From contig CAJOEV010000003.1 in the NCBI GenBank assembly GCA_905233545.1, positions 1-64,000 of the forward strand: a stretch of DNA of 64,000 nt, written 5' to 3'. The DNA comes from an uncultured Eubacterium sp. GTDB lineage: Bacteria; Bacillota; Clostridia; Oscillospirales; Acutalibacteraceae. The notes below the pieces were generated by a model. It was not told where the DNA came from and did no database searches. It saw only the letters and a program-made list of their open reading frames with translations. Positions 4,984 to 22,850 of this stretch are shown in pieces; the first letter of the stretch is position 1, and each line of letters begins with the position of its first letter. The position numbers were made by a program, and so were the translations under genes.

Positions 4984-6141
4984 ATGCCTGAAAACAAACG
5001 CGATTACTATGAAGTTCTCGGTGTAAGCAAGGGAGCTTCGGATGATGAAATAAAAAAAGCATACAGACAAACCGCAAAAAAATACCACCCCGACCTTAAT
5101 CCCGACAACAAGGAAGCGGAGGCAAAATTCAAGGAGTGCAACGAAGCCTACGAGGTTCTTTCAGACCCCGAGAAAAAGGCTCGCTACGACCAATTCGGTT
5201 TTGCAGGCGTTGACCCGAACTACGGTGCAGGTCAGGGCGCAGGTGGCTTCGGCGGAGGCTTTAACGGCTTTGAGGGTGATATTGACCTTGGCGACATCTT
5301 CTCTTCCTTCTTCGGCGGCGGAGGCGGATTCGGAGGCTTCGGCGGCGGAAGAAATCCCAATGCTCCTCAAAGGGGAAGGGATATACAGTCCGCAGTTACA
5401 ATTACCTTTGAAGAGGCTGCAAAGGGATGCAAGAAAACTATTGAAGTTTCAAGAGTTGAGGATTGCTCCCAGTGCCACGGAATAGGTGCAGCAGAGGGAA
5501 CATCGGCAACAAAATGTCCCGAATGTCAGGGCAGGGGTGTTGTTAATGTTCAGCAGAGAACCGCTTTCGGTGTTATGAGCACCCAGAGAACCTGTTCACG
5601 CTGCGGCGGAAAGGGAAAGATTATCGAACATCCCTGCCAGAAATGCAGCGGCAAGGGCAAGGTGCGTAAAAAAGTCAAGGTTGACATTAATATTCCCGCA
5701 GGAATTGATAACCGCCAGGTTGTTAATGTTCGCGGTTACGGCGACAGCGGAATTAACGGCGGACCGAGCGGTGACCTCAGGGTTGTTGTTAATGTCAAGC
5801 CCCATAAGGAATTTGAACGCGAGGATTTCGATATCCTCTACAATAAGCATATCAGCATTGTTGAAGCAGCTCTCGGCGCAGAGGTCAGAGTTCCGACTCT
5901 CGACAATGATATCAAGTATTTCATCCCTGCGGGCACTCAGCCTGGTGATGTGTTCAAGCTTAAGGGCAAGGGCATTCAAAGGCTCAACGGAGTGGGCAAG
6001 GGCGATATGTTCGTTAAGGTTATTGTTGACATTCCCAAGGAGCTTACAAAGGAGCAAAAGGATATATTAATGCAGTTTGATAAATCCTATGTTCCTCCGA
6101 AAAACCAAGGTAAAAAAGGCTTTTTTGACAAGTTTAAATAA
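4984..6141 (+). CDS. dnaJ: Chaperone protein DnaJ (Hsp40)
   Basis: A 385-residue class A J-protein. The J domain (about 1-70) has the invariant HPD in [11 protein letters not shown] Gly/Phe-rich linker (about 78-125) follows. The zinc domain has four CxxCxGxG-type repeats ([32 protein letters not shown]), then the two substrate-binding beta domains and dimerisation end. It delivers clients to DnaK and stimulates its ATPase. The start is ATG 4984, five bases after GGAGG (4974-4978); an in-frame TTG at 4972 overlaps that ribosome site and was rejected. Last gene of the heat-shock operon. Confidence 0.97.
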
Positions 6142-6178
6142 AAAGAAATCCGACTCATTTCGAGTCGGATTTCTTTAT
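6142..6178. terminator. Bidirectional terminator between dnaJ and the esterase gene
   Basis: AAGAAATCCGACTC (6143-6156) pairs with GAGTCGGATTTCTT (6162-6175), with A-runs on the left and T-runs on the right. It serves both converging genes and overlaps the stop codon of the minus-strand gene. Confidence 0.9.
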
Positions 6179-7317
6179 TCTTCGTATTCATCAAATTTAA
6201 GAATAATCATTCTCTGGAAGAAGTCCGTTTCCTTTTCAATAACGTCTTTTCCTGCTGCGTCAAACGGATATAAAACGGAAAAAACATGGGGGAGGGGCTC
6301 TCCGAATTCTTCGCCGTAGTCCTCAAGTTCACATTTTGTTCCGCTTTTGGCAATTTGCTTATAAGCTCTAAGTGTCTGGTCGTGAGCAAGGGAATCGCCG
6401 CTGCTTGTTACAAGGAACGTGGGGGGAAGCTGAGCATATTCAATAATTTCGCTTAAGTCCATAAACTTATATGTTTCTTTCTGCTCATAATCCTTTCCCC
6501 AGAGGATTTTTGTATATATGCTGAACGCTCCGCCGTCCTTCATATATGAAACGGGAGAGGTGAGAACAAGTGCAGTGAGCTCCATTTTCGGATTTACAAC
6601 ATCAAATGTTTTTCTCAGCTCCGCATTCTGAAGCAGAACTGCGGAATAAACTGCAAGCTGACCGCCTGCCGAATCGCCCGTGAGCATTATATTATCCTTA
6701 TCGCATGGATAATTCTTCATATTCTTGCTAATCCATTTAAGAGCATGTGCAACGTCCTGAAGCTGTTCATTAACCGTAACATCGGGAACAAGACGGTAGC
6801 TCATATTGAAAACAACATAGCCCTTTTCGGCAAGCGCAAGGCAGTAGTATTCGTTTAAATCCTTGTCGCCGTACATCCATCCGCCGCCGTGAATATCAAT
6901 AATTACGGGGAGCTTGTCGCTTTTTTTCGTTCCCTTTGGATAGTAAATATCAAGCTGATGATAAATATTGCCGTCGTCTATGTAGGGAACATCTTCAATC
7001 TTATTAAGCGTTTGGGGCGGAGTCTGAACTGCGTGCTTTGCAGCGTCGCCGTCAGCACAGTAGCGCCATACCATCTGCATAATGCGGACAACGGGATTGT
7101 GTCTTATGCCTTTTGCACTGTCGTCCTTGTATTCAACGGTATCCGAAACAACCATTCCGCCGACTGCATATCGGTTTTCATCAGTATCCTTCGCGGGTCT
7201 TGTTACAATATTGATGAAGGCAATTGCCGCAATTGCTATAAAAAGAATTATGCAAACAATAATTATAAGCGCTTTCAGCCAGCCGTTCATCTTTTTTCTT
7301 GTTTTAACCTTTGGCAT
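6175..7317 (-). CDS. Membrane-anchored alpha/beta hydrolase, hormone-sensitive-lipase-like esterase
   Basis: A 380-residue protein. One transmembrane helix near the N-terminus (about 12-33, ALIIIVCIILFIAIAAIAFI) follows a basic start, so the catalytic part should face outward. The hydrolase domain shows the oxyanion-hole motif IDIHGGGW (about 141-148), the nucleophile elbow GDSAGG (about 214-219), a likely acid in SSGDSLAHD and a terminal His in LPHVFS. HGGGW plus GDSAGG is the signature of the HSL/acetyl-esterase (family IV) group; the substrate is not evident. GGAGAG precedes ATG 7317. It lies downstream of murF in the same direction. Confidence 0.85.
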   Translation of the reverse strand: MPKVKTRKKMNGWLKALIIIVCIILFIAIAAIAFINIVTRPAKDTDENRYAVGGMVVSDTVEYKDDSAKGIRHNPVVRIMQMVWRYCADGDAAKHAVQTPPQTLNKIEDVPYIDDGNIYHQLDIYYPKGTKKSDKLPVIIDIHGGGWMYGDKDLNEYYCLALAEKGYVVFNMSYRLVPDVTVNEQLQDVAHALKWISKNMKNYPCDKDNIMLTGDSAGGQLAVYSAVLLQNAELRKTFDVVNPKMELTALVLTSPVSYMKDGGAFSIYTKILWGKDYEQKETYKFMDLSEIIEYAQLPPTFLVTSSGDSLAHDQTLRAYKQIAKSGTKCELEDYGEEFGEPLPHVFSVLYPFDAAGKDVIEKETDFFQRMIILKFDEYEE

Positions 7318-7338
7318 ATTCTCTCTCCGTTCAGTTAT

Positions 7339-8706
7339 TTATGATAAATGTTTTTTGAGTGCTTCAAAAACCTCTTCCATTTTCATCCCTCTTGAGCCCT
7401 TAACAAGTACAGCGCTTCCTTTTGGAAGAGTGCTAATATATTCTTTAACATCACTGATCATTTCAGCCTTGTTTTTCTTAGCGAAGCTCTTTGAATTTTT
7501 GCTCATTCCCTTTTTGAAGGCTTCAAAATCGTCCCCGACAAAATATGCAAAATCTATATTGTTTTTTTCGCACATTTTTCCGAGATTTTCATGTTCCTTT
7601 GCAGAGAATTCACCGAGCTCAAGCATTTCGCCGAGAAGTGCAACAATCTTTCCGTTTTTGGAATATGATTCAAGTGTTTCAAGCGCAACCCTTGCGGAAT
7701 CGGGGCTTGAATTATAGTAGTCCTTAACAAAAATCAGTCCGCCGATTTCTTCGCTTTCACATCTCATTGAAACCTTCTGGAATCCTTCGAGCGCCTTGAA
7801 TGCTGTTTTGAGGTCGATGTCAAAATGAAGTCCGCAAAGCATTGCTTCAAGTGAATTTAAAACATTGTATTTGCCGAGAACGGGAATAAATCCGCTTGCC
7901 TCGTCATTTGAATACTTAACCGAAAATTCGGTTGTATCAATATCCGATTTGATATTATATGCAAGAATATCGGCGTTTTTGTTATCAATTCCCGTAAACT
8001 GTTTTTTGAAATCGCCCGTATCCGCTGTTGAAAGAAGCGGGTCGTCACCATTCAGAATCAGAAGTCCGTCTTTATTTAGCCCTTCAAGAATTTCAAGCTT
8101 TGCTTTAAGAATATTTTCCTGAGAGCCGAGATTTCCGATATGCGCTTTTCCGACATTGGTTATAATTGCAACATCGGGTTTTGCAATATTGGTAAGCCTG
8201 CTGATTTCGCCGAGATGATTCATTCCCATTTCGAGAACAGCAATATCATAGCTGTCATCAAGCTGAAAAACGCTTTTCGGAAGACCTATTTCATTGTTGT
8301 AGTTTTTATCGGTTGAATAAACATTATATTTTGAGGATAAAACCGTTTTTGTCATATCCCTTGTTGATGTTTTTCCGTTGCTTCCCGTTATTGCAACTAT
8401 TTTAATATCAAGAAGTGTTCTGTAGTAGGAAGCAAGTCGGTGCATTGCAAGAAGAGTGTCGTCAACCATCAAAACGGGAACGGAAGCTTCAACCTCCTGC
8501 GAGCAGACAACTGCAGCCGCGCCGTTTTTTTCGGCAACAGAAATATAGTCGTGACCGTTGAATTTTTCGCCAACAAGAGCAATGAACAAATCACCCTGCT
8601 CAATTGTTCTTGTGTCTGTGCTGACGCCTTTAATCTCGATGTCACCGCTGTAATCGCAGTTTGCGCCGATGTTTTTTATTATATCCGTGAGTTTTAAATT
8701 CTTCAT
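7339..8706 (-). CDS. murF: UDP-N-acetylmuramoyl-tripeptide--D-alanyl-D-alanine ligase MurF
   Basis: A 455-residue Mur ligase. The small N-terminal UDP-binding domain (FIALVGEKFNGHDYISVAEKNGA) is followed by the ATP-binding domain with P-loop ITGSNGKTSTRDM (about 105-117), the TDKNYNNEIGLP motif that separates MurF from MurC/D/E, and ELGMNHLGEI. The C-terminal Rossmann domain contains VKDYYNSSPDSARVALE and VLVKGSRGMKMEEV. It adds D-Ala-D-Ala to the peptidoglycan precursor in the cytoplasm. Here it sits apart from the usual dcw cluster, first in a two-gene transcript with the esterase. Confidence 0.95.
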   Translation of the reverse strand: MKNLKLTDIIKNIGANCDYSGDIEIKGVSTDTRTIEQGDLFIALVGEKFNGHDYISVAEKNGAAAVVCSQEVEASVPVLMVDDTLLAMHRLASYYRTLLDIKIVAITGSNGKTSTRDMTKTVLSSKYNVYSTDKNYNNEIGLPKSVFQLDDSYDIAVLEMGMNHLGEISRLTNIAKPDVAIITNVGKAHIGNLGSQENILKAKLEILEGLNKDGLLILNGDDPLLSTADTGDFKKQFTGIDNKNADILAYNIKSDIDTTEFSVKYSNDEASGFIPVLGKYNVLNSLEAMLCGLHFDIDLKTAFKALEGFQKVSMRCESEEIGGLIFVKDYYNSSPDSARVALETLESYSKNGKIVALLGEMLELGEFSAKEHENLGKMCEKNNIDFAYFVGDDFEAFKKGMSKNSKSFAKKNKAEMISDVKEYISTLPKGSAVLVKGSRGMKMEEVFEALKKHLS

Positions 8707-13452: not shown

Positions 13453-14427
13453 GTGTATAATGTTTCGGTTTCCCCTCATGTAAGGGATAAGAGCTCAACA
13501 AAATCAATAATGCGTGATGTTGCAATTGCGCTTGTTCCGACACTTGGATTCGGAATTTATCAGTTCGGCTGGAATGCGGCGCTTCTGATAGCAATATCAG
13601 CGCTTTCCTGCATTGGATTTGAGGCACTGTATGAGCTTCTGGCAAAAAAGCCCGTAACGATTTTTGATTACAGTGCACTTGTAACAGGACTTGTTCTTGC
13701 GGTAAACCTTCCGCCAACAGCAGCGTGGTGGATGCCGATACTCGGCTCAGCATTTGCAATCATTGTTGTTAAAATGCTTTTCGGCGGACTCGGTCAGAAC
13801 TTTATGAACCCCGCGCTTGCAGGACGTTGCTTCCTTATGATTTCCTTCACTGCAAGAATGACTAATTTCGCAGTTGACGAAGTTTCGGGCGCAACACCGC
13901 TTGCTTCTTTAAAAGCGGGCGAACTTGTCAGCATAAAGGATGTTTTCTTTGGCTTCCAGAGCGGATGTATCGGCGAGGTTTCGGCGCTTGCAATTTTAAT
14001 CGGCGCAGCATACCTCGTAATCAGAAAGGTTATTTCGCTTCGAATACCGCTTACATACATTATTTCAACGATTGCAATTATTGCATTTATAAAGCTTGTT
14101 TCACACCAGGATTTAAGCGTTGCTTATCTTCTCGGCGAGCTCTTCTCGGGCGGACTTCTTGTCGGTGCGTTCTTTATGGCAACCGACTATGTAACCAGCC
14201 CTGTAACAGTAAAAGGTCAGTATGTTTTCGGATTTGTTATCGGTCTGCTGACAGCGCTCTTCAGAACTCTCGGTTCAACGGCTGAAGGCGTTTCATATGC
14301 AATTATCATCGGTAACCTTCTTGTTCCGCTGATTGAAAACAAAACCATTTTCCGTCCGTTTGGATGTGAAAAAGAAACATGGTTCAAAAAATTAAAGAAG
14401 GAGGGCGAAGACGATGGCAAAAAGTAA
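13453..14427 (+). CDS. rnfD: Rnf complex subunit RnfD
   Basis: A 324-residue membrane protein with about nine transmembrane helices. The motif SGATPLASL (about 145-153) holds the threonine that receives covalent FMN from ApbE. The start is GTG 13453 after the purine-rich site AGGAAGGGGG. The end overlaps rnfG by 14 bases. It forms the ion-conducting core with RnfA and RnfE. Confidence 0.95.
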   Translation: MYNVSVSPHVRDKSSTKSIMRDVAIALVPTLGFGIYQFGWNAALLIAISALSCIGFEALYELLAKKPVTIFDYSALVTGLVLAVNLPPTAAWWMPILGSAFAIIVVKMLFGGLGQNFMNPALAGRCFLMISFTARMTNFAVDEVSGATPLASLKAGELVSIKDVFFGFQSGCIGEVSALAILIGAAYLVIRKVISLRIPLTYIISTIAIIAFIKLVSHQDLSVAYLLGELFSGGLLVGAFFMATDYVTSPVTVKGQYVFGFVIGLLTALFRTLGSTAEGVSYAIIIGNLLVPLIENKTIFRPFGCEKETWFKKLKKEGEDDGKK

Positions 14428-15010
14428 ATCAAACGCTTTCAAAAACATTTCGGTTCTCTTTGTTGTTGCACTTGTTTCGGTTGCCCTTCTTGCAGTGCTC
14501 AATCAGATAACAAAGGATAAGATTGCCGACGCGGAAACGCAGGCAAGAAATGAGGTATATCAGAGCGTATATACCGAGGCAGCATCCTTCGAGGAGCAGA
14601 AGATTGACTATACACCCGAGGATGAATCAATAGTTGTTAATACTGTGCTCTGTGCAAAGAGCAAAAGCAGTGAAAATATCGGCTATGTTTTTGATGTAAC
14701 GAGCAAAAACGGCTACGGCGGAGATGTTCAGATTGCAGTCGGAATAACAAACGAGGGCGAAGTTACCGCATTCAAGGTTATTGCTGCAAGCGAAACCCCG
14801 GGTCTCGGCGCAAAATCAATGGAGGATGAATATGCCTCTCAGTTTTCGGGACTTTCGGCGCTCAATCCTATTGCATTTTCAAAAACAGGCGCAAACCGCG
14901 ATAATAATGAGATAGACGCAATCAGCGGCGCAACAATAACAACAACGGCAACAACAAATGCCGTTAACGCCGCAATTGATATGTGGAATTCTCAGCTGAA
15001 AGGGGAGTGA
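14414..15010 (+). CDS. rnfG: Rnf complex subunit RnfG
   Basis: A 198-residue protein with one N-terminal transmembrane helix (about 14-31) and an outward FMN-binding domain. It has GEVTAFKVIAASETPGLGAK and the flavinylation motif ISGATITTTATTNAV, in which the Thr of SGAT would carry covalent FMN. It overlaps rnfD, and rnfE starts 5 bases after its stop. It passes electrons across the membrane part of Rnf. Confidence 0.95.
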   Translation: MAKSKSNAFKNISVLFVVALVSVALLAVLNQITKDKIADAETQARNEVYQSVYTEAASFEEQKIDYTPEDESIVVNTVLCAKSKSSENIGYVFDVTSKNGYGGDVQIAVGITNEGEVTAFKVIAASETPGLGAKSMEDEYASQFSGLSALNPIAFSKTGANRDNNEIDAISGATITTTATTNAVNAAIDMWNSQLKGE

Positions 15011-15015
15011 GATAT

Positions 15016-15690
15016 ATGAAGGGTATTTTAGAAAGACTTTATAACGGTATCGTAAAAGAAAATCCGACCTTTGTGCTTATGCTCGGAATGTGTCCCACCC
15101 TTGCGGTAACAACAAGTGCAAAAAACGGTCTTGGAATGGGATTTGCAACAATGGCAGTTTTAATTCTGTCAAACCTTATGATTTCTCTTTTAAGAAAAAT
15201 CATACCCGAAGGTGTTCGCGTTCCCGTTTATATAACGGTTATTGCTTCTTTCGTAACGATTATAGAAATGGTTATGCACGCATATGTTAAACCGCTTTAT
15301 GACAGCCTTGGAATTTTCATTCCGCTTATCGTTGTTAACTGCATTATTCTCGGCAGAGCGGAATCATATGCAAACAAAAACAATGCAATTCTCTCGATTT
15401 TCGACGGTGTCGGAATCGGTCTGGGCTTCACAATCGGCTTGACTATGATAGGAATTGTCCGTGAGCTTCTCGGCAACGGAACAATTTTCGGACTTCAGAT
15501 TATGCCGAAATCTTATGAGCCCGTTGCAATATTCGTTATGGCTCCGGGTGCGTTCCTTATTCTTGCACTCCTCTGTGCTGTTCAGAATAAGCTCAAGCTC
15601 AAGGGAGCAAACCGCCACGTTAAGGGTGACGGAGGATGCAGCGGAGACTGTGAATCATGTCCGATGAAGGAGGTTGAAAAAGATGGCTAA
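15016..15690 (+). CDS. rnfE: Rnf complex subunit RnfE
   Basis: A 224-residue protein with six membrane helices. The conserved opening NPTFVLMLGMCPTLAVTTSA contains the membrane Cys that, with its counterpart in RnfA, binds the intramembrane Fe-S cluster. The start is ATG 15016, 8 bases after GGGGAG; the in-frame codon at 14983 lies inside rnfG and was rejected. The C-terminal tail is Cys-rich (GCSGDCESCPMKE), an extra not needed for the fold. The stop overlaps the rnfA start. Confidence 0.95.
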   Translation: MKGILERLYNGIVKENPTFVLMLGMCPTLAVTTSAKNGLGMGFATMAVLILSNLMISLLRKIIPEGVRVPVYITVIASFVTIIEMVMHAYVKPLYDSLGIFIPLIVVNCIILGRAESYANKNNAILSIFDGVGIGLGFTIGLTMIGIVRELLGNGTIFGLQIMPKSYEPVAIFVMAPGAFLILALLCAVQNKLKLKGANRHVKGDGGCSGDCESCPMKEVEKDG

Positions 15691-16264
15691 TACTTTATTT
15701 CTTGTTTTGATTTCAACAGCCTTGATTAATAATGTAACACTGTCGCAGTTCCTCGGAATCTGTCCGTTTTTAGGAGTTTCAAGGAATGTTAAAACTGCAG
15801 CAGGTATGGGCGGAGCAGTTATCTTTGTTATAACTCTTTCCTCGGCAGTTGCTTCGCTTCTTTACACTTTCGTTCTTGAAAAATTCGGCTTAACCTATCT
15901 GAAAACAATCGTTTTCATAATGGTTATCGCGTTTTTAGTTCAGCTCGTTGAGCTGTTCCTGAAGAAATTTGTTCCTCCGCTTTACAGAGCGCTTGGTGTT
16001 TATCTTCCGCTTATAACAACAAACTGTGCTGTTTTAGGCGTTGCGCTTACAAATGTTCAGAAGGAATATGATTTCGTAACAAGCGTTGTTTCGGGCTTCG
16101 GAACAGCGGTAGGTTTCTGCGTTGCAATAGTTATTATGGCAGGAATCAGAGAAAAAACAGAAAGAAACGATTTCCCCGAAGCATTCAGAGGCACACCCGC
16201 TGTTTTGCTTACGGCTTGCCTTATGTCGATTGCTTTCTACGGCTTCGGCGTATTGCCGAAATAA
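15683..16264 (+). CDS. rnfA: Rnf complex subunit RnfA
   Basis: A 193-residue membrane protein, paralogue of RnfE with inverted topology. It shows NNVTLSQFLGICPFLGVS with the cluster-binding Cys, and TTNCAVLGVAL in the second half. The start is ATG 15683, nine bases after AAGGAGG (15667-15673), overlapping the rnfE end; an in-frame TTG at 15674 is flush with the ribosome site and unlikely. Confidence 0.95.
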   Translation: MANTLFLVLISTALINNVTLSQFLGICPFLGVSRNVKTAAGMGGAVIFVITLSSAVASLLYTFVLEKFGLTYLKTIVFIMVIAFLVQLVELFLKKFVPPLYRALGVYLPLITTNCAVLGVALTNVQKEYDFVTSVVSGFGTAVGFCVAIVIMAGIREKTERNDFPEAFRGTPAVLLTACLMSIAFYGFGVLPK

Positions 16265-16276
16265 GGAGGTGCCCGA

Positions 16277-17080
16277 ATGAATACAGGTGAAATTATTACT
16301 GCCATTGTTGTTCTTGCAGTGGTTGCACTCATAATCGGAATCATCCTTTCAATCGCCGAAAAAGCCTTCAAGGTTGAGATTGACGAAAAAGAGGTTGCAG
16401 TAAGGGAAGAACTTCCCGGAAGCAACTGCGGCGGCTGCGGATATGCGGGCTGTGACGCACTTGCAAAGGCTATCGCTTCGGGCGAGGCTCCCGTTTCGGG
16501 CTGTCCCGTCGGCGGAGCGCCCGTCGCTCAGAAAATTGCCGCAATTATGGGTCAGGAGCTCGGCGAGCTCGAAAGAATGGTTGCATATGTTAAATGCGAC
16601 GGAACAAGCGAAAAGAAGGAAGAGGACTATAACTATTTCGGAATAGACAGCTGTGTTTATGCAGCTCTTCTTCCCGGAACAAGCCCATATGCCTGCAAAT
16701 TCGGCTGTATCGGTCTCGGTTCCTGTGCAAGAGTCTGCGACCAGAAGGCAATAAGAATTATCAACAAAAAAGCCGTTGTTGATGAGGATATGTGCGTTGC
16801 TTGCGGAAAGTGCATAAAAATCTGTCCTCACCACTTAATCGAAATTATTCCCGCTTCTTCTCAGCAGAGAGTTCAGTGCTCCTCGCTTTCAAGGGGTAAG
16901 GATGTTAAAAATGCCTGTGCAGCAGGCTGTATCGGATGCGGACTCTGTGCAAAGAACTGCCCGAGCGAAGCAATTGTTTTCAATAACAATATTCCGAAAA
17001 TCGATTATTCAAAATGTACGCACTGCGGACTTTGCGTTGAAAAATGTCCCGTTAAAATCATTAAGGTTTACAATCAATGA
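16277..17080 (+). CDS. rnfB: Rnf complex subunit RnfB (multi-cluster ferredoxin subunit)
   Basis: A 267-residue protein. It has an N-terminal membrane anchor (about 5-27), then the A-F domain cluster motif NCGGCGYAGCDALAKAI with GCPVGG. Further Cys motifs follow: CKFGCIGLGSCARVCDQKAI, CVACGKCIKICPHHL, CAAGCIGCGLCAKNCP and CTHCGLCVEKCP. That gives one A-F cluster and probably four ferredoxin-type 4Fe-4S clusters. It accepts electrons from reduced ferredoxin and feeds the membrane core. It overlaps apbE by four bases (ATGA). Confidence 0.95.
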   Translation: MNTGEIITAIVVLAVVALIIGIILSIAEKAFKVEIDEKEVAVREELPGSNCGGCGYAGCDALAKAIASGEAPVSGCPVGGAPVAQKIAAIMGQELGELERMVAYVKCDGTSEKKEEDYNYFGIDSCVYAALLPGTSPYACKFGCIGLGSCARVCDQKAIRIINKKAVVDEDMCVACGKCIKICPHHLIEIIPASSQQRVQCSSLSRGKDVKNACAAGCIGCGLCAKNCPSEAIVFNNNIPKIDYSKCTHCGLCVEKCPVKIIKVYNQ

Positions 17081-18099
17081 AAAAACTGATATCAATAGCT
17101 TTAATATTGGTTTTGTCGGCGGTATGCTGCTCCTGCAGCGTACCGCTTAATAGTCGTTACTCAAAAACCTTCTCAGAGCTCTTTGACACCGTTTCAACGG
17201 TTACTGCTTATGACACTGATGAAAAGGCGTTTGATGAGCATTACAAGGCTTTTTACGGCAAGCTGGAGGAATATCATAAGCTATTTGATATCTATAATGA
17301 ATACGAGGGGATGAACAATCTAAAAACTCTCAATGATAAAGCAGGCAAAGAGTCCGTTGAGGTTGACGGGCGAATAATCAGCCTGCTTGAATACGGCAAA
17401 GAGGTCTATGAAATAAGCAGCGGTAAAACAAATATCTGCTTCGGCTCGGTGCTTTCGCTCTGGCATATCGCACAGGAAACAAAAACGCTCCCCGATGAGC
17501 AAAAACTCAGGGAAGCAGCGAAGCATACGGATATCAACGATTTGATTATCGACAAGGAAAACAAAACAGTTTTCTTTAAGGATAAGGATTTAAAACTCGA
17601 TGTCGGCGCAATAGCAAAGGGATGGACAGCAAAGGAAGTATGCAATTGGGCGCAGAAAAATATATGGAGCTCGGCAATGCTAAGCCTCGGCGGAAACATC
17701 TGCACTTTTGGTTTTAAGAATGACGACGGCAGTACTCCGTGGAATGTTGAAATCGAAAGTCCGAATAACAAGGATAAAAACGGCGTTGCGATAGTATCCG
17801 TTCACGATATGAGCGTTGTAACAAGCGGTGATTATCAACGCTATTTTGAAAAGGACGGCAAGCGATATTGCCATATTATCAACACCGAAACCCTATACCC
17901 AAGCGAGTATGTTTCAAGCGTTTCGGTTGTCTGCAAGGATTCAGCTCTCGCCGACGCACTTTCAACAACTCTTTTCAATATGACTATTGAAGAGGGCAAA
18001 GCCTTAATAGAAAAAACAGACGGCACCGAAGCCGTCTGGGTGGATAAAAGCTATAATGTTGAATATTCAAAAGGTTTCAATTTATATCTCGCTGATTAA
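17077..18099 (+). CDS. apbE: FAD:protein FMN transferase ApbE, lipoprotein type
   Basis: A 340-residue protein with a signal peptide ending in a Cys cluster (LSAVCCSCS), probably a lipobox, so it acts outside the membrane. The ApbE fold shows FDTVSTVTAYD, NICFGSVLSLWH, KLDVGAIAKGWTAKEV, AMLSLGGNICTFG and YCHIINTETLYPSEYVSSVSVV, plus the late metal-binding region DSALADALSTTLF. It attaches FMN to the Thr of SGAT motifs. Being coupled to rnfB, it most probably flavinylates RnfD and RnfG of the same operon. Confidence 0.93.
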   Translation: MKKLISIALILVLSAVCCSCSVPLNSRYSKTFSELFDTVSTVTAYDTDEKAFDEHYKAFYGKLEEYHKLFDIYNEYEGMNNLKTLNDKAGKESVEVDGRIISLLEYGKEVYEISSGKTNICFGSVLSLWHIAQETKTLPDEQKLREAAKHTDINDLIIDKENKTVFFKDKDLKLDVGAIAKGWTAKEVCNWAQKNIWSSAMLSLGGNICTFGFKNDDGSTPWNVEIESPNNKDKNGVAIVSVHDMSVVTSGDYQRYFEKDGKRYCHIINTETLYPSEYVSSVSVVCKDSALADALSTTLFNMTIEEGKALIEKTDGTEAVWVDKSYNVEYSKGFNLYLAD

Positions 18100-18142: not shown

Positions 18143-18177
18143 AAGCACAGGATTTTTATCCTGTGCTTTGTTTTATT
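18143..18177. terminator. Terminator of the rnf-apbE operon, also usable from the minus strand
   Basis: AAGCACAGGAT (18143-18153) pairs with ATCCTGTGCTT (18158-18168) around TTTT, followed by a T-rich tail. Its right edge meets the stop codon of the converging operon. Confidence 0.85.
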
Positions 18178-18650
18178 TATTCAACATTAATAGTTAAATA
18201 TAAAGAATCATCTTCAAGAACTTCATCATCAACAATGGTCATATTGTCGGATAAATTCTTTTTGATATGGTCATAGGTGTAAGCTTGAACGTTTCTGCCG
18301 TAATCAATCTCAAAAGATTTAATATTTTCAAGTAAACCTTCAACGTCGTTTATTTCATCAAGATATAATCTGAATGCTTCGTCGACACTGTTTCTTTTGT
18401 AAATGAGATTACCGCAGGTTGTTTCAACTATAAACTGGTTTTCATCAACCTGCTGAAAATGACAGTCAAAATTATTAAGAGTTTTTACAAGCAGCTGTGA
18501 GTCTGCAAAAATTGTTTCAAAGCCCTGATTTATCTGCGATTCTTCTTTTTCAGTCGCCGCAATTGTTGCCGAAACAGCTGTAACCGCAGCCTGTGTAAGC
18601 GTAACTCCCGCAACAATTGCACAGGAGGTTAAAGATAATACTAAAGACAT
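18177..18650 (-). CDS. DUF1257/Ycf35-like protein with an N-terminal membrane anchor
   Basis: A 157-residue protein, last gene of the Ycf46-type operon. A hydrophobic start (about 2-30, LVLSLTSCAIVAGVTLTQAAVTAV) looks like a signal anchor. The remaining ~110 residues follow the DUF1257 pattern: an early LLVKTLNNFDCHFQ, a middle predicted strand-helix region, and the closing QAYTYDHIKKNLSDN plus VLEDDSLYLTINV. The last part parallels the usual Ycf35 ending (a Q-x-Y-A-Y helix, then two strands). Ordinary DUF1257 proteins lack a membrane segment and begin with MSHF, so the anchor is unusual. AAGGAG lies 9 bases before the ATG, which fixes the start. Assignment is by pattern and by the company of Ycf46 and DUF2997. 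Function unknown. Confidence 0.6.
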   Translation of the reverse strand: MSLVLSLTSCAIVAGVTLTQAAVTAVSATIAATEKEESQINQGFETIFADSQLLVKTLNNFDCHFQQVDENQFIVETTCGNLIYKRNSVDEAFRLYLDEINDVEGLLENIKSFEIDYGRNVQAYTYDHIKKNLSDNMTIVDDEVLEDDSLYLTINVE

Positions 18651-18661
18651 ATAATCACTCC

Positions 18662-20296
18662 TTATAAATCAAAATCGACAATTCTTCCGCCTTGATTATT
18701 TATAAATGAACCTTCACCGTCACCGGTTGAGCCGCTCGGGCTTGCATTTTCTCTGTCACTCGGAGCCGTTGCCAGAACAGCTCTTTCCTGAGCCCATGCA
18801 CGAAGTTCAAGAATTTGCTCACGCTGGGTTGCCGAAAGCGGAACAGTTTCCTTAATTGCTTTCAAAACATCGTCTTTATTAAGACCTCTGTCATTATAAA
18901 ACGCCTCATACATAGCAGAGATAACAATCTGCTCGATTTCAGCGCCGACATATCCTGCCGAAGCCATAGCCAGTTCGTGACATGTTTCGGAATCGGGAAG
19001 TATATCGTGATTAATATCTGAATTTTTAAGAATTTTTTTAATGTGAACATTAAAGATTTTTTCACGCTCTTTAAGAGTAGGAAGGTCAACGAAAAAGATT
19101 TCGTCAAAACGTCCCTTACGAAGAAGTTCGGGAGGAAGCGAGCTTATGTCGTTTGCGGTAGCAATAACAAAAACGGGCTCGGTTTTTTCCTGCATCCAGG
19201 TTAAGAAGGTTCCGAATACACGCGCCGATGTTCCCGAATCGCCGCCGCTTTTAAGTCCCGAAAAGCCCTTTTCAATCTCGTCAACCCAAAGAATTGAAGG
19301 GGATACTGCTTCTGCTGTTGCAATCGCCTTTCTCATGTTTTCCTCAGAGCTTCCGACTATTCCGCCGAAGATTTTACCCATATCGAGTTTTAAAAGAGGA
19401 AGTCCCCAGATTGCGCTCATAGCCTTTGCGGTGAGCGATTTACCACAGCCGGGAACACCTGTAATTAAAACGCCTTTGGGAGCAGGAAGATTGTACTTTT
19501 TAGCCTTTTCAGACCACGAATTATTTCTTCTTAACAGCCAGGTTTTAAGGTTTTCCAAACCACCGATATCATCGATATTAAGGTCGGACTTAACAAATTC
19601 AAGAACACCCGTTTTTTTAACAACCTGATTCTTTTCTTCGTGAATAATAGAAAGAGCGCTTAAATCAAGCCCTTTAATATTAACTATAGCACGGCAAAAT
19701 GCGTTTTCAGCTTCCTGCATAGTAAGACCCAGAGCCGAGCGCGCAAGAAGGCTTTTATCATCCTCACTGAGTTTTACGGTTTCGGGGGTGAGTCCTTCAA
19801 TAAGCTCATCAAGCAGTCCTCTGATTTCCTGCTCGTTAGGTAAGTCGAAGTCGAGAATTGATATTTCTTTTTCCATATCACACGGAATAACAAGCTTGGG
19901 AGAAACGAAAACAACTGTTTTTCTAGTCATTTTCAACATTGGCAAAATATCTCTCAGCCTTCTTATAACAGCCGCGTCGGGACGCGCATTCCTTTCGCCA
20001 CCGAAATAGACGTGAAAATCTCTGAGAATGAATATTGCGTCGTCTTTCGTTTTAGATATAGCATTAATAGCGTTTATCGGAGATACTGTATCTCTTATTC
20101 TCTCGCTGTCGCCAACTATTCCCTCTGTCTGAGTCCAGGTGTATAACTTTCTTTCGCTCTTAATCAAATCCCTGTCATCCATAGCGGCTCTTATTGATTC
20201 GCTTATTCTGTCCTCTTCAAAGGAAGAGATGTAAATATAGGGGAATCCGGCATTTACAAGATTTGCGAAATTCTGTTTAAATGTACTTTTTGCCAT
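18662..20296 (-). CDS. Ycf46-type AAA+ ATPase
   Basis: A 544-residue protein. The N-terminal ~240 residues ([24 protein letters not shown]) match the non-catalytic half of Ycf46. The AAA+ module has Walker [16 protein letters not shown] (about 275-289), the Ycf46-like [24 protein letters not shown], Walker [12 protein letters not shown] (about 333-343), sensor 1 IATAND and arginine finger region [12 protein letters not shown] (about 390-401). A Ser/Gly-rich tail follows. I start it at ATG 20296, five bases after GGAGG; the upstream in-frame TTG forms part of that ribosome site. Ycf46 is widespread in cyanobacteria and plastids with no settled function. Here it lies between a radical SAM activase and a DUF1257-like gene. 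Confidence 0.8.
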
Positions 20297-20311
20297 GTTT
20301 ACCTCCAAATA

Positions 20312-20902
20312 TCAATTCTTAATTTTATCAATTAATTCTTTTAATTTTTCAACATTTCCCATTCCGTTAAAATGAATGGTTCCGTGCTCATCATATCTTA
20401 ATTCAAATCTGTTTTTGTAGTTTTCAATCTGAGATTTGCTAATACCGTCTCCGAGATAATAAAACTTCTGGTTTGAAGAGCCGACAAGCGGTCTTGAATA
20501 ATCGGTTTTTTCTTTGACAAACTCACCGTCAATAAGCAAATCGGTGTTTTCAAGAAGCGCTTTAGTTCCGATGTCATCCCTTCCTTTAAGTTCGGCATAG
20601 CTGTAACCCGTAAACGTGATAACATTCTTTTGAACACTTTTAACATACTTTGCGACCTCTGAAAGCTCGCTTGCCTTATCAAAAGGCTCTCCGCCGAGAA
20701 AAGTAATTCCGTCAAGCTCATCTTCAACAAGCTGGAAGCGATTAATTATCTCGTGTGCACTTATTTCATAACCCTTTTCATAATCCCAGAGCTCTGTTGC
20801 AAAACAGCCTTCGCAATTATGATTGCAGCCTTGCACCCAAATGCAAAATCTGCACCCGGGACCCTCGGCAAAAGTTTTTTCAACTATTCGGTTTACTCTC
20901 AT
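20312..20902 (-). CDS. Radical SAM activase, NrdG-like (4Fe-4S single-cluster family)
   Basis: A 196-residue protein with the radical SAM motif CNHNCEGC (Cys 26, 30, 33) and two extra cysteines just before it (17, 20). The GGEP motif (FLGGEPFDKA, about 70-79) binds AdoMet. Size and layout match activating enzymes of the NrdG/PflA type. No class III ribonucleotide reductase (nrdD) lies nearby; the neighbours are a Ycf46 ATPase and membrane proteins, so the client is probably within this operon. It starts at ATG 20902, sharing one base with the stop of the upstream gene (TAATG). Confidence 0.8.
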   Translation of the reverse strand: MRVNRIVEKTFAEGPGCRFCIWVQGCNHNCEGCFATELWDYEKGYEISAHEIINRFQLVEDELDGITFLGGEPFDKASELSEVAKYVKSVQKNVITFTGYSYAELKGRDDIGTKALLENTDLLIDGEFVKEKTDYSRPLVGSSNQKFYYLGDGISKSQIENYKNRFELRYDEHGTIHFNGMGNVEKLKELIDKIKN

Positions 20903-21921
20903 TATAAGTCAATCTGACGTCTTGATTTATGTGCAGCAGGCGGATTAGAGGTGCTTCCTGTGTCCTGCCCTGCCACAATAAGGTCGTCAATTTTAACTAA
21001 AATGTGCGGTTTAATATTAATTGCTTCATAAAACTCGTCTTTTGTATTGAAACTTCCGCTGTTTTCCCTTGCCTTAATCGCCCTCTTGGCATCAACAACT
21101 GTAAGCCCCGGAAGATTGGCAAATTCCTCTTCATTTGCCTTGTTTATATCGAGCATATCGGTTTTAGAGGCGGGTTCAGTTTCTTGAGTCTGCGACTGAG
21201 ACTGAACAGACTCACTAACATTCTCCTCCGGATTATCAGGCTGCACGTTGTCATTATTCTGATTCGGAGCTCCGCCGAGAAGCTGTTCCAATTCGGGACT
21301 GTTCTGAACGGATGGAGTTTGACTTGAAGCAGTCGCAGCGTCCTGAATTCTGTCAGCGGGCTTTCCTCCGTCACCGTATTTTAATGCGGGTGCGGTTTCA
21401 GATTGTGCGAGCTTATCTAAGAAAGTGTAATTCTGGGACGAAATATAAAAGAAAACAAAAATTGTATAAATTGTCAGACTTGTTTCAAGTGCGGTATTAA
21501 CACCTTGTATAGTGCCAATGTGATGTGCATTTTCAATTATCTTTTTTTGAATATCCTCATCGTTTAAATAATCATCCAAAGCTTTACTATATTTCTTATA
21601 TTCGTCAAGCTCTTTCATTTCCTTACGGGTATGAGTTTTAAGGTATTCCTCCTGCTCTTCTTGTGAAATGTAATCGGTTAACATCGGTTCATCGGGAACA
21701 TCATACAAATCATCGTAAGTAATAGAACCTACATAATACGAAGAAACAGTCAACGCGATACTTACGACAAGCGTTACCCAAACCATCATAAACCATTTTT
21801 TGTTTTTTACTCTTGCATACATATATACCAGACAAAATGAATTCAATACCGGAATCGGAGCTGCTAAAAGATACAGCGAATTCAGTATTTTCCATTTTGT
21901 ATTTTTTCCTTCAATTCCCAA
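20902..21921 (-). CDS. Three-pass membrane protein with C-terminal helix-hairpin-helix domain
   Basis: A 339-residue protein. Two N-terminal membrane helices (about 11-33 and 39-61), an acidic Lys/Glu-rich loop and a third helix (about 138-158) are followed by a disordered Gln/Pro/Asn-rich linker. The last ~65 residues (DMLDINKANEEEFANLPGL, VVDAKRAIKARE, FNTKDEFYEAINI) form a ComEA/photosystem-type helix-hairpin-helix module. I start it at TTG 21921 (GGAGG eight bases upstream). The longer frame from 21945 contains that ribosome site, and the TTG start aligns with the paralogue next door. The shared N-terminal half suggests gene duplication. Role unknown; the domain could bind DNA or a protein partner at the membrane. 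Confidence 0.65.
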   Translation of the reverse strand: MGIEGKNTKWKILNSLYLLAAPIPVLNSFCLVYMYARVKNKKWFMMVWVTLVVSIALTVSSYYVGSITYDDLYDVPDEPMLTDYISQEEQEEYLKTHTRKEMKELDEYKKYSKALDDYLNDEDIQKKIIENAHHIGTIQGVNTALETSLTIYTIFVFFYISSQNYTFLDKLAQSETAPALKYGDGGKPADRIQDAATASSQTPSVQNSPELEQLLGGAPNQNNDNVQPDNPEENVSESVQSQSQTQETEPASKTDMLDINKANEEEFANLPGLTVVDAKRAIKARENSGSFNTKDEFYEAINIKPHILVKIDDLIVAGQDTGSTSNPPAAHKSRRQIDL

Positions 21922-21946
21922 TTGATTTTCCTCCAAAATATACATT

Positions 21947-22555
21947 CTATCGATTATTAAGTCTTTCCTGCAGCATCATAGTATCAATTCTGCCGGAATA
22001 CATCTGCAAAAACTTTCCTCTTTGAAGTAAAAGATAAACAAAAGCAAATAAATTATACAGTAAAAATACTGCAGAGAAAATGGTCCTTGAGGTTTTAACA
22101 CTGTTTTGGAATCTTTCGTTTGCTTTTTTTGCCTTTTGAAGTTCCGCATTGTTTTCGTCATCTGTTTCTTTCTGTTTGTTATACTCAGCGTCTGCTTTTT
22201 CGTATGCTTTATATTCTTCGGTTTCATACCATTCTTCTTTGTATGAACCGTTCTCATTTTTGAAAGAATCTATGTAATCCTGGGTTGCAAAATCGTTAAT
22301 AGAAGGAGCTTCATTTATGTTATTATAGCCTTCCGATGCAATCTCAGTATATGCATAACTGTTTAATGTTGAAAATAAAGCAATAGTTACGGTAGAAACA
22401 GCAATGGTAATCCACATCAGTATTCTCCACGGTTTATGCTTGGTTCTGTCATACATATACATAAAACAGAAAGCATTAAGAAAAGGAATGAACGACATAA
22501 TCAGATAAAGCGAATTTTGCCTTTCCCACTTGTCGCCTTTGTTTGTAAGAGCCAT
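21947..22555 (-). CDS. Three-pass membrane protein, paralogue of the adjacent helix-hairpin-helix protein
   Basis: A 202-residue protein beginning MALTNKGDKWERQNSLYL, which matches KNTKWKILNSLYL of its neighbour. Helices lie at about 14-36 and 42-62. A highly charged, probably helical middle (EWYETEEYKAYEKADAEYNKQ and on) leads to a third helix (about 157-177, TIFSAVFLLYNLFAFVYLLLQ) and a short tail. It has the same layout as the next gene but lacks the linker and terminal domain. The ATG overlaps the stop of the DUF2997 gene (TAATG). No family recognised. Confidence 0.6.
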   Translation of the reverse strand: MALTNKGDKWERQNSLYLIMSFIPFLNAFCFMYMYDRTKHKPWRILMWITIAVSTVTIALFSTLNSYAYTEIASEGYNNINEAPSINDFATQDYIDSFKNENGSYKEEWYETEEYKAYEKADAEYNKQKETDDENNAELQKAKKANERFQNSVKTSRTIFSAVFLLYNLFAFVYLLLQRGKFLQMYSGRIDTMMLQERLNNR

Positions 22556-22758
22556 TATGCTTTAACCTCCTCAATGTTTTCTTCTTCGAGTTGGTTATCA
22601 ACCTCATAGTATTCATCAGTGAATTCAGAATCATCGCAAACAGCGTTAGCCATTTTTTCAATCTGTTCAAGATACTTCAGGCACTTTTTACCTTTGATGC
22701 CGAATGTTTCCGCCTCTATATGTCCGTCGGATGATATTTTTATTTTGATTTGCTGCAT
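22555..22758 (-). CDS. DUF2997 family small protein
   Basis: A 67-residue acidic protein beginning MQQIKIKISSDGHIEAETFG, then KGKKCLKYLEQIEKM and DDSEFTDEYYEV. The pattern (two strands I-x-I-x-I-x-x-D-G-x-I-x-x-E-x-x-G, then K-G-x-x-C and an E-Y-Y end) matches DUF2997, a family that accompanies DUF1257 and Ycf46 in cyanobacteria and other bacteria. I start it at ATG 22758, preceded by GAGGAGG; a longer frame reaching 22815 runs into the operator and is not credible. First gene of the six-gene operon. Function unknown. Confidence 0.7.
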   Translation of the reverse strand: MQQIKIKISSDGHIEAETFGIKGKKCLKYLEQIEKMANAVCDDSEFTDEYYEVDNQLEEENIEEVKA

Positions 22759-22795
22759 AAAAACCTCCTCAAAAAACGAGCGATAATACGCCATA

Positions 22796-22825
22796 TAATA
22801 ATTGTTTATATACAATTATTAATTG
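22796..22825 (-). promoter_or_regulatory. Palindromic operator over the Ycf46-type operon promoter
   Basis: TAATAATTG (22796-22804) and CAATTATTA (22813-22821) form a perfect 9-base inverted repeat with an 8-base spacer. CAATTA-T-TAATTG (22813-22825) is a second, overlapping palindrome. Both cover the -10 and start-site region, where a repressor would block transcription. No regulator gene lies next to it. Confidence 0.6.
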
Positions 22826-22850
22826 TAACATTCCATATAAAATTAGTCAA
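22822..22850 (-). promoter_or_regulatory. Sigma-A promoter of the six-gene Ycf46-type operon
   Basis: On the minus strand TTGACT (22850-22845), 17 bases, TACAAT (22827-22822). The start codon lies about 60 bases downstream. Confidence 0.8.

Follow-up and report, generated by a model that had tools for sequence, protein, structure and literature searches.

Two proteins that are unrelated in sequence, a AAA+ ATPase and a membrane protein with a helix-hairpin-helix (HhH) region, share a new C-terminal motif, R-x-[LIVMAT]-[DE]-[hydrophobic]-COOH, and are encoded in the same six-gene operon. The operon lies within 64,000 nucleotides of DNA from an uncultured Eubacterium sp. (the window), and comparison with other genomes supports the six genes as a conserved unit. 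With somewhat less than even confidence, we favour the explanation that the six genes code for a p97-like remodelling machine docked at the membrane, to which tagged membrane partners are recruited, probably by way of DUF1257/DUF2997. The original prediction for this DNA had proposed a membrane assembly of these proteins, which we also infer; it overlooked the shared tail, the likely tandem p97-like architecture of the ATPase, the wide spread of the set and the paralogy of its two transmembrane (TM) proteins.

Organization of the operon

The open reading frame list and translations confirm the six minus-strand ORFs within 18177..22850, and their coordinates agree with the predicted junctions of at most 25 bases or one-base overlaps. 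In gene order, the junctions are a 1-base overlap, a 1-base gap, a 1-base overlap, a 15-base gap and an 11-base gap. The gap between the DUF2997-side TM gene and the TM/HhH gene is 1 base, or 25 if the latter starts at an alternative, RBS-preceded TTG at 21921, which would give a protein of 339 aa.

One promoter and one operator had been predicted, and a candidate for each was found. A sigma-70-like sequence, TTGACT-17-TACAAT (22822..22850, minus strand), agrees with the consensus at 10/12 positions, and an operator-like palindrome of 26 bp (22796..22821, no strand assigned; inverted repeat I3, 13-nt arms, 92% complementary) lies immediately downstream of its -10 box. Promoter-like matches are no more frequent across the region than expected by chance (15 in the sequence, 14.0 on average after shuffling), and so this sequence is plausible as the operon promoter by its position only. 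An intrinsic terminator, consisting of an 11-pair hairpin and a T-rich tail (18143..18168, minus strand), follows the last gene.

Distribution of the gene set

Among the best 80 (named) of 570 AAA relatives, 34 loci carry the AAA, DUF1257-like, DUF2997, TM/HhH and radical SAM families together, with the gene order shuffled and at least six phyla represented. The predicted conserved unit is supported by this co-occurrence. Two plasmid loci carry all five families by the same profiles. Within the window's genus the set is sporadic, occurring in 4/60 genomes, many of which are incomplete. Mis-binning may affect some metagenome-assembled contigs, for example that of Methanosphaera. Genes were called with a simple ORF script, and the family profiles were grown iteratively on the same loci, so the membership of weak family rows is not independent of them.

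In a quick AAA tree, made without bootstrap, 40 rows from TM-bearing loci and four others fall on one side of a single branch (44/82 rows, SH-aLRT 99), and this side spans seven phyla. To fit the tree, the TM label has to change four times, and well-supported branches force at least two of these changes; L107 and L120 are long branches of unsure placement.

The AAA+ ATPase

The Ycf46-type AAA+ ATPase (18662..20296, minus strand; 544 aa from the ATG) matches PF00004 at residues 276-404 (E 7.6e-29). This is its second AAA domain (D2), in which the P-loop (GVPGCGKS) and Walker B (ILWVDE) motifs can be recognized by eye. The putative first AAA domain (D1) has no P-loop. Taken together, the sequence and an AF2 model suggest an intact D2 and a probable, degenerate D1. 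A Foldseek search with the model gave alignments across D1-D2 of p97/Drg1 (best E 5.7e-17, 531-593 gapped columns), with whole-chain TM-scores of only 0.33-0.46, rmsd of 14-16.5 and identity of about 16-20%. The low whole-chain scores argue that D1 and D2 match p97 domain by domain, and not as one rigid arrangement. Sequence searches against the PDB matched D2 only (query residues 238-471 for the best rows), and D1 had no match among the 59 PDB sequences listed at E<=1e-25.

Within residues 5-516 the protein is 43-46% identical to its relatives at 11 cyanobacterial loci where DUF1257 is a neighbour. We call it Ycf46-type from this similarity to cyanobacterial proteins adjoining Ycf35. In the row set A4, 35 of the 37 AAA rows listed were combined with the window and 2 rows from cyanobacteria. 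Residues 517-544 are disordered in the model (tail pLDDT about 30), and for that reason a tail folded back onto its own chain was rejected.

The DUF1257-like and DUF2997 proteins

The 67-aa protein (22555..22758, minus strand) was correctly predicted to be DUF2997, matching PF11211 with E 6.1e-12 (45.7 bits against a cut-off of 24.1). It carries a GxxGxxC motif, of which the G..C is near-invariant in the family (49/50 rows).

The 157-aa protein (18177..18650, minus strand) has a hydrophobic N-terminus, as expected of the predicted membrane anchor, followed by an alpha-beta4-alpha domain. Its assignment to DUF1257 holds for the family profile but not for the single sequence. PF06868 (DUF1257) has no match to the window protein at E<=1 and none in the window's own genome at E<=10, and it finds only 2 of 28 aligned relatives at E<=1 (best E 0.0006, 20.4 against 22.2 bits). 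The family profile aligns with 12 cyanobacterial DUF1257 rows in hhalign (95.2%, E 2.7e-8), two of which were scored on PF06868 at 79.9 and 65.5 bits. The alignment used (A2) held 28/52 listed ORFs of up to 260 aa, with two-domain, soluble and doubtful rows left out. Because the profile alignment holds and the single-sequence Pfam match fails, the protein is classed by sequence as a divergent DUF1257 homologue at profile level, and not as a scored Pfam member. At L127, a DUF1257 protein with a hydrophobic N-terminus does reach the Pfam model (35.4 bits, cut-off 22.2). The original prediction would have been undone by a mismatch to DUF1257 and DUF2997 or by a lack of co-occurrence elsewhere; it was not refuted, since DUF2997 is clear and co-occurrence was found, with DUF1257 recognized at profile level only.

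The hydrophobic N-terminus is present at 28 TM loci and missing at 10, against 5 and 16 for other loci; these counts are affected by errors of the ORF script in start positions and in some long GC-rich ORFs that overlap others. No solved homologue of the family was accepted: its best match among known structures, a designed NTF2 protein (E 0.00085), was put down to chance.

The TM and TM/HhH proteins

The remaining membrane proteins are one of 202 aa without HhH or tail motif (21947..22555, minus strand; recognized by hydropathy) and one of 347 aa with HhH (20902..21945, minus strand; PF12836, E 7.7e-8), which ends RRQIDL. They match each other with 75.7 bits, the HhH protein being the only other match of the 202-aa protein in the genome at E<=0.01, and by sequence the shorter protein and the N-terminal half of its neighbour are paralogous. 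NCBIfam MAG0110 reaches only 19.8 bits in the 202-aa protein, against a cut-off of 98. Both had been predicted to have three TM segments; at the hydropathy threshold used, this is so for the 202-aa protein, but the HhH protein has only two.

The inclusion of the TM/HhH protein in the set was well founded, as it is a conserved partner across loci. DNA binding by its HhH is not favoured, because the canonical hairpin pattern occurs in only 10/54 TM/HhH ORFs.

The shared C-terminal tail

The TM/HhH protein ends in R-Q-I-D-L-stop by the tail test (20902..20919, minus strand) and the translated ATPase in R-I-V-D-F-D-L-stop (18662..18685, minus strand), which is the motif plus two residues. The regular expression used for counting, R-x-[LIVMAT]-[DE]-[FLIVYWM], was composed after the tails had been seen; a trained profile and the plasmid loci provide less circular checks. 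It matches 50/54 TM/HhH ORFs and 38/81 AAA ORFs (44 if up to two further residues are permitted), 0/42 radical SAM, 0/59 DUF1257 and 1/47 DUF2997 proteins, and 2/673 other genes, both adjoining the L101 operon. The sole DUF2997 match (L092, ending RNTEY) is taken as chance. A profile made from 42 AAA tails alone separated TM/HhH tails from the 673 other genes with an AUC of 0.967, with only 20/54 TM/HhH tails above every background gene outside L101. At the plasmid loci, which were fetched later, the motif is present in 2/2 HhH tails and 1/2 AAA tails (the other ends RGGRTFEF).

The four TM/HhH ORFs without the motif are those of L097, which has one extra residue, L077 (2421), L080 (2459) and L082 (2043); these ORFs of L077, L080 and L082 appear to belong to the family falsely or only in part. 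Three loci have a motif-less ATPase though the partner has the motif: L104, L110 and L080, where the frame stops 15 bases short of the contig end. Among the 38 strictly tagged AAA tails, glycine is found at -6 in 36 and at -7 in 32. Cyanobacterial Ycf46-like proteins end mostly in QRMEF or QRLEF, which is only partly motif-like. DUF1257 is present in 18 loci with a motif-less AAA (11 of them cyanobacterial), and four motif loci have no detected DUF1257; because the two thus occur apart, the link between adaptor and tail is a correlation.

The tail-bearing partners vary in their domains, which include HhH arrays, GYF_2, TPR, zinc-ribbon-like domains and, in one TM protein, an Mrr nuclease domain; a recruitment tag would be expected to show such variety. 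To look for tagged clients in the rest of the genome, one pattern restricted to F/L as the last residue was used (F/L/I/V/Y/W all occur). Of its 12 matches, against 24 for a reversed-pattern control, only the HhH gene was a genuine R-x-Phi-D-Phi gene end, and further clients were rejected for this form of the tail.

The radical SAM protein

The fourth gene (20312..20902, minus strand) encodes a 196-aa protein with a CX3CX2C motif, which matches PF13353 with E 2.4e-35 (122.2 against 22 bits) and belongs to the radical SAM superfamily by PF04055 (35.6 bits, cut-off 29.5). Its description as NrdG-like is apt at this level, but the NrdG model itself, TIGR02491, gives 118.2 bits over positions 2-152 of 154, under its cut-off of 126.1. 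CX3CX2C is present in 43/48 rows of the family, and in the remaining five after short gene calls were extended.

A glycyl-radical-type target, which had also been suggested, is not supported. None of the six operon genes encodes a glycyl-radical enzyme, and the two NRDD matches of the genome lie on other contigs (C7 and C8, the operon being on C3), each with its own radical SAM (Fer4_12) gene 0.9 and 1.2 kb away. NrdG duty for the operon gene was rejected because both NRDD matches have this closer gene. A ferredoxin gene beside the operon was likewise rejected: a motif scan found no small ferredoxin-motif ORF within 1.5 kb at any of 42 loci (L075-L118 and L128, less three), and one nearby at 2/38 comparison loci.

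A model for the operon and its alternatives

In the model that we favour, the engine would be a presumed p97/Cdc48-like tandem AAA+ ring with D1 degenerate and D2 intact, the domains being read from sequence and model. An adaptor layer would be made up of DUF2997 and the DUF1257-like protein, whose hydrophobic N-terminus would anchor it, with the TM/HhH protein as client or partner. The AAA and TM/HhH tails may both fit a common type of pocket on this layer, which would hold ring and membrane protein together, and ATP hydrolysis would then remodel, extract or release the membrane partner. The weakest step is that the radical SAM protein might modify a component of the complex (the DUF2997 GxxGxxC loop, or the partner); also among the weakest is that the AAA motor might expose or release the site so modified. 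A broader version, possible but more doubtful, is that R-x-[LIVM]-[D/E]-[hydrophobic]-COOH is a portable tag by which interchangeable membrane proteins, ranging from HhH scaffolds to an anchored nuclease, are recruited to a membrane-docked p97-like ring with a member-modifying radical SAM protein. Such an arrangement would be the bacterial equivalent of the Cdc48 adaptors, the place of ubiquitin being taken by a C-terminal tag.

It is rather unlikely that the radical SAM protein is instead the heart of the operon, installing a modification or radical on a member (DUF2997 or the AAA RGGR tail) with AAA and DUF1257 as assembly or reactivation factors. This proposal draws on the NrdG/PFL-activase-like sequence, the constancy of CX3CX2C, the near-invariant G..C of DUF2997 and the glycines of the tagged AAA tails, and PMC4284462, in which cyanobacterial DUF2997 and Ycf35 occur with ferredoxin Fed7, adds a redox theme. 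However, the occurrence of DUF2997 and DUF1257 is not confined to loci with a detected radical SAM gene (exceptions include L115, L119 and L127), and the lack of both a glycyl-radical enzyme among the six genes and a ferredoxin-motif ORF near the 42 loci scanned argues against it.

An anti-phage or other conflict system, with the tagged membrane proteins as sensors or effectors, is improbable. Sporadic presence in the genus (with many genomes incomplete), plasmid carriage, the Mrr-type nuclease domain of one TM partner and the tandem array at L082 would all suit such a role, but the six proteins only cross-match PADLOC (AAA domain to IetA, TRIP13 and mad8; radical SAM weakly to viperin; HhH to DRT, E 0.03). 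PADLOC matches of neighbouring genes (E<=1e-5; 128/239 scanned, with no matched control set) are scattered over 61 families of at most six members each, and the 25 commonest neighbour Pfam families serve mainly transport, metabolism, signalling and ATPase functions. For that sample (A5), 140 neighbours were drawn at random and 12 of them then removed manually; these were mostly GC-rich ORFs, together with the tagged 926-aa protein of L101. A defence island was rejected, since no consistent defence gene adjoins the loci in this uncontrolled sample. Singleton matches among the 128 neighbours include CARF/Csx1, dGTPase and AbiH types. There is a similarly small chance that the set serves membrane quality control or the maintenance of complexes, as cyanobacterial Ycf46/Ycf35 are presumed to do, with HhH as structural scaffold and not client. 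The naming of ycf35 and ycf46 among four habitat-associated red algal plastid genes in PMC5940233 is consistent with that role; sporadic presence in the window's genus, and the absence of a detected TM/HhH or radical SAM gene beside 11 cyanobacterial DUF1257 loci, speak against it.

Comparison with known systems

Spirochaete contractile injection system (CIS) modules at L133, L134 and L181 all include a radical SAM protein and a Ycf46-like AAA, with DUF2997 detected in two. Unlike the window genes, these are surrounded by genes for tail sheath, tube and baseplate, with no TM/HhH gene detected. When ten CIS-cluster proteins of L133/L134 were compared with the window and 104 loci, matches (E<=1e-4) were confined to L133 and L134 (L181 being known by annotation only), and a CIS role for the operon was rejected on this ground.

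ComEA-type membrane-anchored proteins resemble the HhH protein in combining a TM segment with HhH (TIGR01259, 34.3 bits), but the score is far under the comEA cut-off of 152.35, and the tail motif and the rarity of the canonical hairpin set the window family apart. The radical SAM protein is close to NrdG and pyruvate formate-lyase activases by its PF13353 match and near-full TIGR02491 coverage; it differs in scoring below the NrdG cut-off and in not adjoining NrdD or another glycyl-radical enzyme. The likeness of the ATPase to p97/Cdc48 and Drg1/Afg2 extends over both AAA domains in the Foldseek alignment and over D2 only in sequence, and the window protein differs in a D1 without P-loop and in having, by eye, no p97-type N domain.

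Also close are the cyanobacterial and plastid Ycf46, Ycf35 (DUF1257) and DUF2997 proteins, which are widespread and whose biochemical function is not settled in the literature available to us. In cyanobacterial cluster g, duf2997 and ycf35 are the genes paired with Fed7 (PMC4284462), and in red algal plastids ycf35 and ycf46 have the habitat association noted above. The likeness lies in the AAA family, in DUF1257 at profile level and in DUF2997 over its cut-off. The window set differs in its extras: the hydrophobic N-terminus of DUF1257, the TM/HhH partner or partners, the radical SAM protein and the R-x-[LIV]-D tail. This version stands by itself and is at times carried on plasmids; its constant members and the tail common to two of them lead to concrete predictions of who binds whom, and a binding answer for the tail could extend to the cyanobacterial and plastid proteins.

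Organization and distribution of the operon

The six minus-strand genes lie at positions 18177-22758. Upstream of them, at 22850-22796, are a predicted promoter-like site and a palindrome, and a predicted terminator follows downstream. Among the six window proteins, matches to DUF2997, HHH_3, Fer4_12/Radical_SAM and AAA exceed Pfam cut-offs, and nothing passes any Pfam cut-off for the 202-residue TM protein or the 157-residue DUF1257-like protein. The 202-residue protein is paralogous to the HhH protein's N-terminal half, and it has no further match in the genome. The radical SAM protein has NrdG as its nearest NCBIfam model, at a score under the NrdG cut-off. Labelled by eye, an RNF electron-transfer cluster and an ApbE-like flavin transferase occupy 14414-18099 on the plus strand, convergent toward the operon.

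The AAA protein is sporadic in the genus, being present in 4 of 60 genomes, many of them incomplete (G000, the window's own, plus G013, G047 and G057). Order-wide it was matched in 10 of 394 genomes (E<=1e-35), and phylum-wide in 13 of 398. Six of 25 loci inspected from these searches (the window, L031, L032, L033, L043 and L044) combine TM/HhH, radical SAM, AAA and DUF1257-like genes, and DUF2997 was detected too in four of the six. The six-gene operon of the original prediction is a sound observation, and its conservation as a unit is broader than that prediction could see: in a survey of named genomes, limited to the best 80 of 570 confirmed AAA relatives, all five families (AAA, DUF1257-like, DUF2997, TM/HhH and radical SAM) occur at 34 of the 80 loci. 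Carriers of the full set include Paenibacillus aquistagni, Neobacillus, Clostridium peptidivorans, Gastranaerophilales, Dactylosporangium, Micromonospora, Microbacterium, Tenacibaculum, Sebaldella and an Armatimonadetes MAG, and they span Bacillota, Melainabacteria, Actinomycetota, Bacteroidota, Fusobacteriota and Armatimonadota. Because the order of the genes differs from locus to locus, selection on the set is favoured over an inherited neighbourhood.

In a quick maximum-likelihood tree of the AAA proteins, one branch (SH-aLRT 99) sets apart 44 of the 82 rows, namely 40 of TM type and four others (L076, where the contig is cut, L101, L107 and L120); the TM label needs four changes on this tree, at least two of them forced. 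Complete sets are also carried by plasmids, one a conjugative plasmid of Rhodococcus aetherivorans and the other from Paenarthrobacter. More generally, a plasmid collection has Ycf46-like AAA relatives (E<=1e-60) in 648 records, of which 563 are typed conjugative and many come from Enterobacterales. In a phage collection, 54 records carry a relative of the AAA protein (E<=1e-40) below 60% identity, most of them phages of Mycobacterium and Pseudomonas. Another type of neighbourhood (L046, L047, L048, L049, L050 and L074) pairs a Ycf46-like AAA protein with proteins of 530-600 residues and coiled-coil look, several having an additional protein of 150-190 residues.

A shared C-terminal tail

At these loci, the AAA protein and the TM/HhH protein have the same kind of C-terminal end. 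The expression R-x-[LIVMAT]-[DE]-[FLIVYWM], written after the tails had been inspected, matches 50 of 54 closed TM/HhH ORFs and 38 of 81 AAA ORFs (44 when up to two extra residues are allowed). It matches 0/42 radical SAM, 0/59 DUF1257 and 1/47 DUF2997 proteins, and 2 of 673 other genes, both adjoining the operon of locus L101. Because the expression was made post hoc, a position profile was trained on AAA tails alone (42 tails). This profile separates TM/HhH tails from background genes with an AUC of 0.967; its top two background scorers are the two L101 genes, and 20 of the 54 TM/HhH tails score above every other background gene. At two later plasmid loci the expression matches both HhH proteins and one of the two AAA proteins, the other ending in RGGRTFEF, one position off the motif. 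Counted by locus, the looser AAA tail and a TM gene are both present at 36 and both absent at 33, with the tail alone at 8 and the TM gene alone at 3; the corresponding counts for DUF1257 are 40, 18, 4 and 18. A search of the window's own genome with one tail pattern found no genuine gene end carrying it besides that of the operon's HhH gene.

Cyanobacterial Ycf46-like proteins have tails that partly resemble the motif of the membrane system, of QRMEF/QRLEF type at 9 of 11 loci (L132, L136, L138, L140, L146, L149, L150, L153 and L154; the exceptions are L126, KRMEF, and L145, KRLEWS). A possible second C-terminal motif, -WCG/-FCG, ends two DUF1257-DUF2997 fusion-like proteins (L066, 11417-11926; L067, 7044-7628) and one small uncharacterised protein (L115, 6780-6950).

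The proteins that bear the tail vary. No ordinary TM/HhH gene was found beside the L101 operon, and its two tail-bearing membrane proteins (5015-8549; TM by eye) carry TPR in one case and an Mrr-type nuclease domain in the other. Elsewhere the partner has seven HhH stretches (L117), GYF_2 plus HhH (L095), TM segments with no Pfam match (L114), or TM segments with a zinc-ribbon match under cut-off (L034). At locus L082 (1290-6332), eight ORFs of the TM/HhH family stand in tandem, their N-termini diverged, and the tail is present in seven. One pair among these ORFs overlaps and could represent a single gene broken across two frames. Since the tail is constant while its partners vary, the simplest reading of these sequences is that it would serve as a recruitment tag. 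DUF1257/DUF2997 are the putative receptor, as the small proteins left over in the set and because fusion-like proteins occur. The fusion-like protein of L066 scores 57.5 bits for DUF2997 and 15.8 bits, under cut-off, for DUF1257; that of L067 is recognized by alignment alone, with no Pfam match. The shared tail gives the gene set a testable wiring.

The AAA protein and the radical SAM enzyme

Foldseek alignments of the AAA model to p97, Cdc48 and Drg1 span D1 and D2 of these proteins (531-593 columns with gaps; best E 5.7e-17). Whole-chain TM-scores are low (0.33-0.46) and rmsd is 14-16.5, arguing that the two domains match without a common rigid arrangement. By sequence, the second domain alone matches solved chains. 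It contains GVPGCGKS, which we take to be the P-loop, and a presumed arginine-finger region; the first domain has no P-loop. Residues 517-544 are disordered in the predicted model.

Of 48 radical SAM family rows, 43 show an intact cluster motif, and the remaining five do so after short gene calls are extended. A glycyl-radical-type target, which the original prediction had tentatively offered, is not supported: no glycyl-radical enzyme is found among the six operon genes, and each of the two NRDD proteins in the genome has a candidate of its own nearby. Candidate targets are DUF2997, whose G..C is present in 49 of 50 family rows, or the RGGR segment that many AAA tails contain.

Relation to known systems

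A cyanobacterial gene cluster duf2997-ycf35-fed7 has been described (PMC4284462). The portions covered of the literature on Ycf46, ycf35/DUF1257, DUF2997, slr0374 and contractile injection with radical SAM, mostly outside subscription journals, do not tie these genes to membrane proteins of HhH type or to a radical SAM gene, and the same holds for the sections consulted of PMC4284462, PMC5940233, PMC13131479, PMC7496141 and PMC13214033.

Spirochaete gene clusters for contractile injection systems also contain radical SAM and Ycf46-like AAA genes (L133, 6360-8730; L134, 6371-9413; L181, 7336-9491), with DUF2997 present in L133 and L134. L133 has matches to CIS_tube, sheath and gp19; the L181 cluster was assigned by annotation, and its AAA protein ends in VRKLEM. 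For the Pvc15 ATPase, the part of the report considered here describes N-terminal signal peptides that permit effector loading with the help of the AAA ATPase (PMC11495950). Recruitment by the tail would be a loose parallel to this, in that a terminal peptide is used in each.
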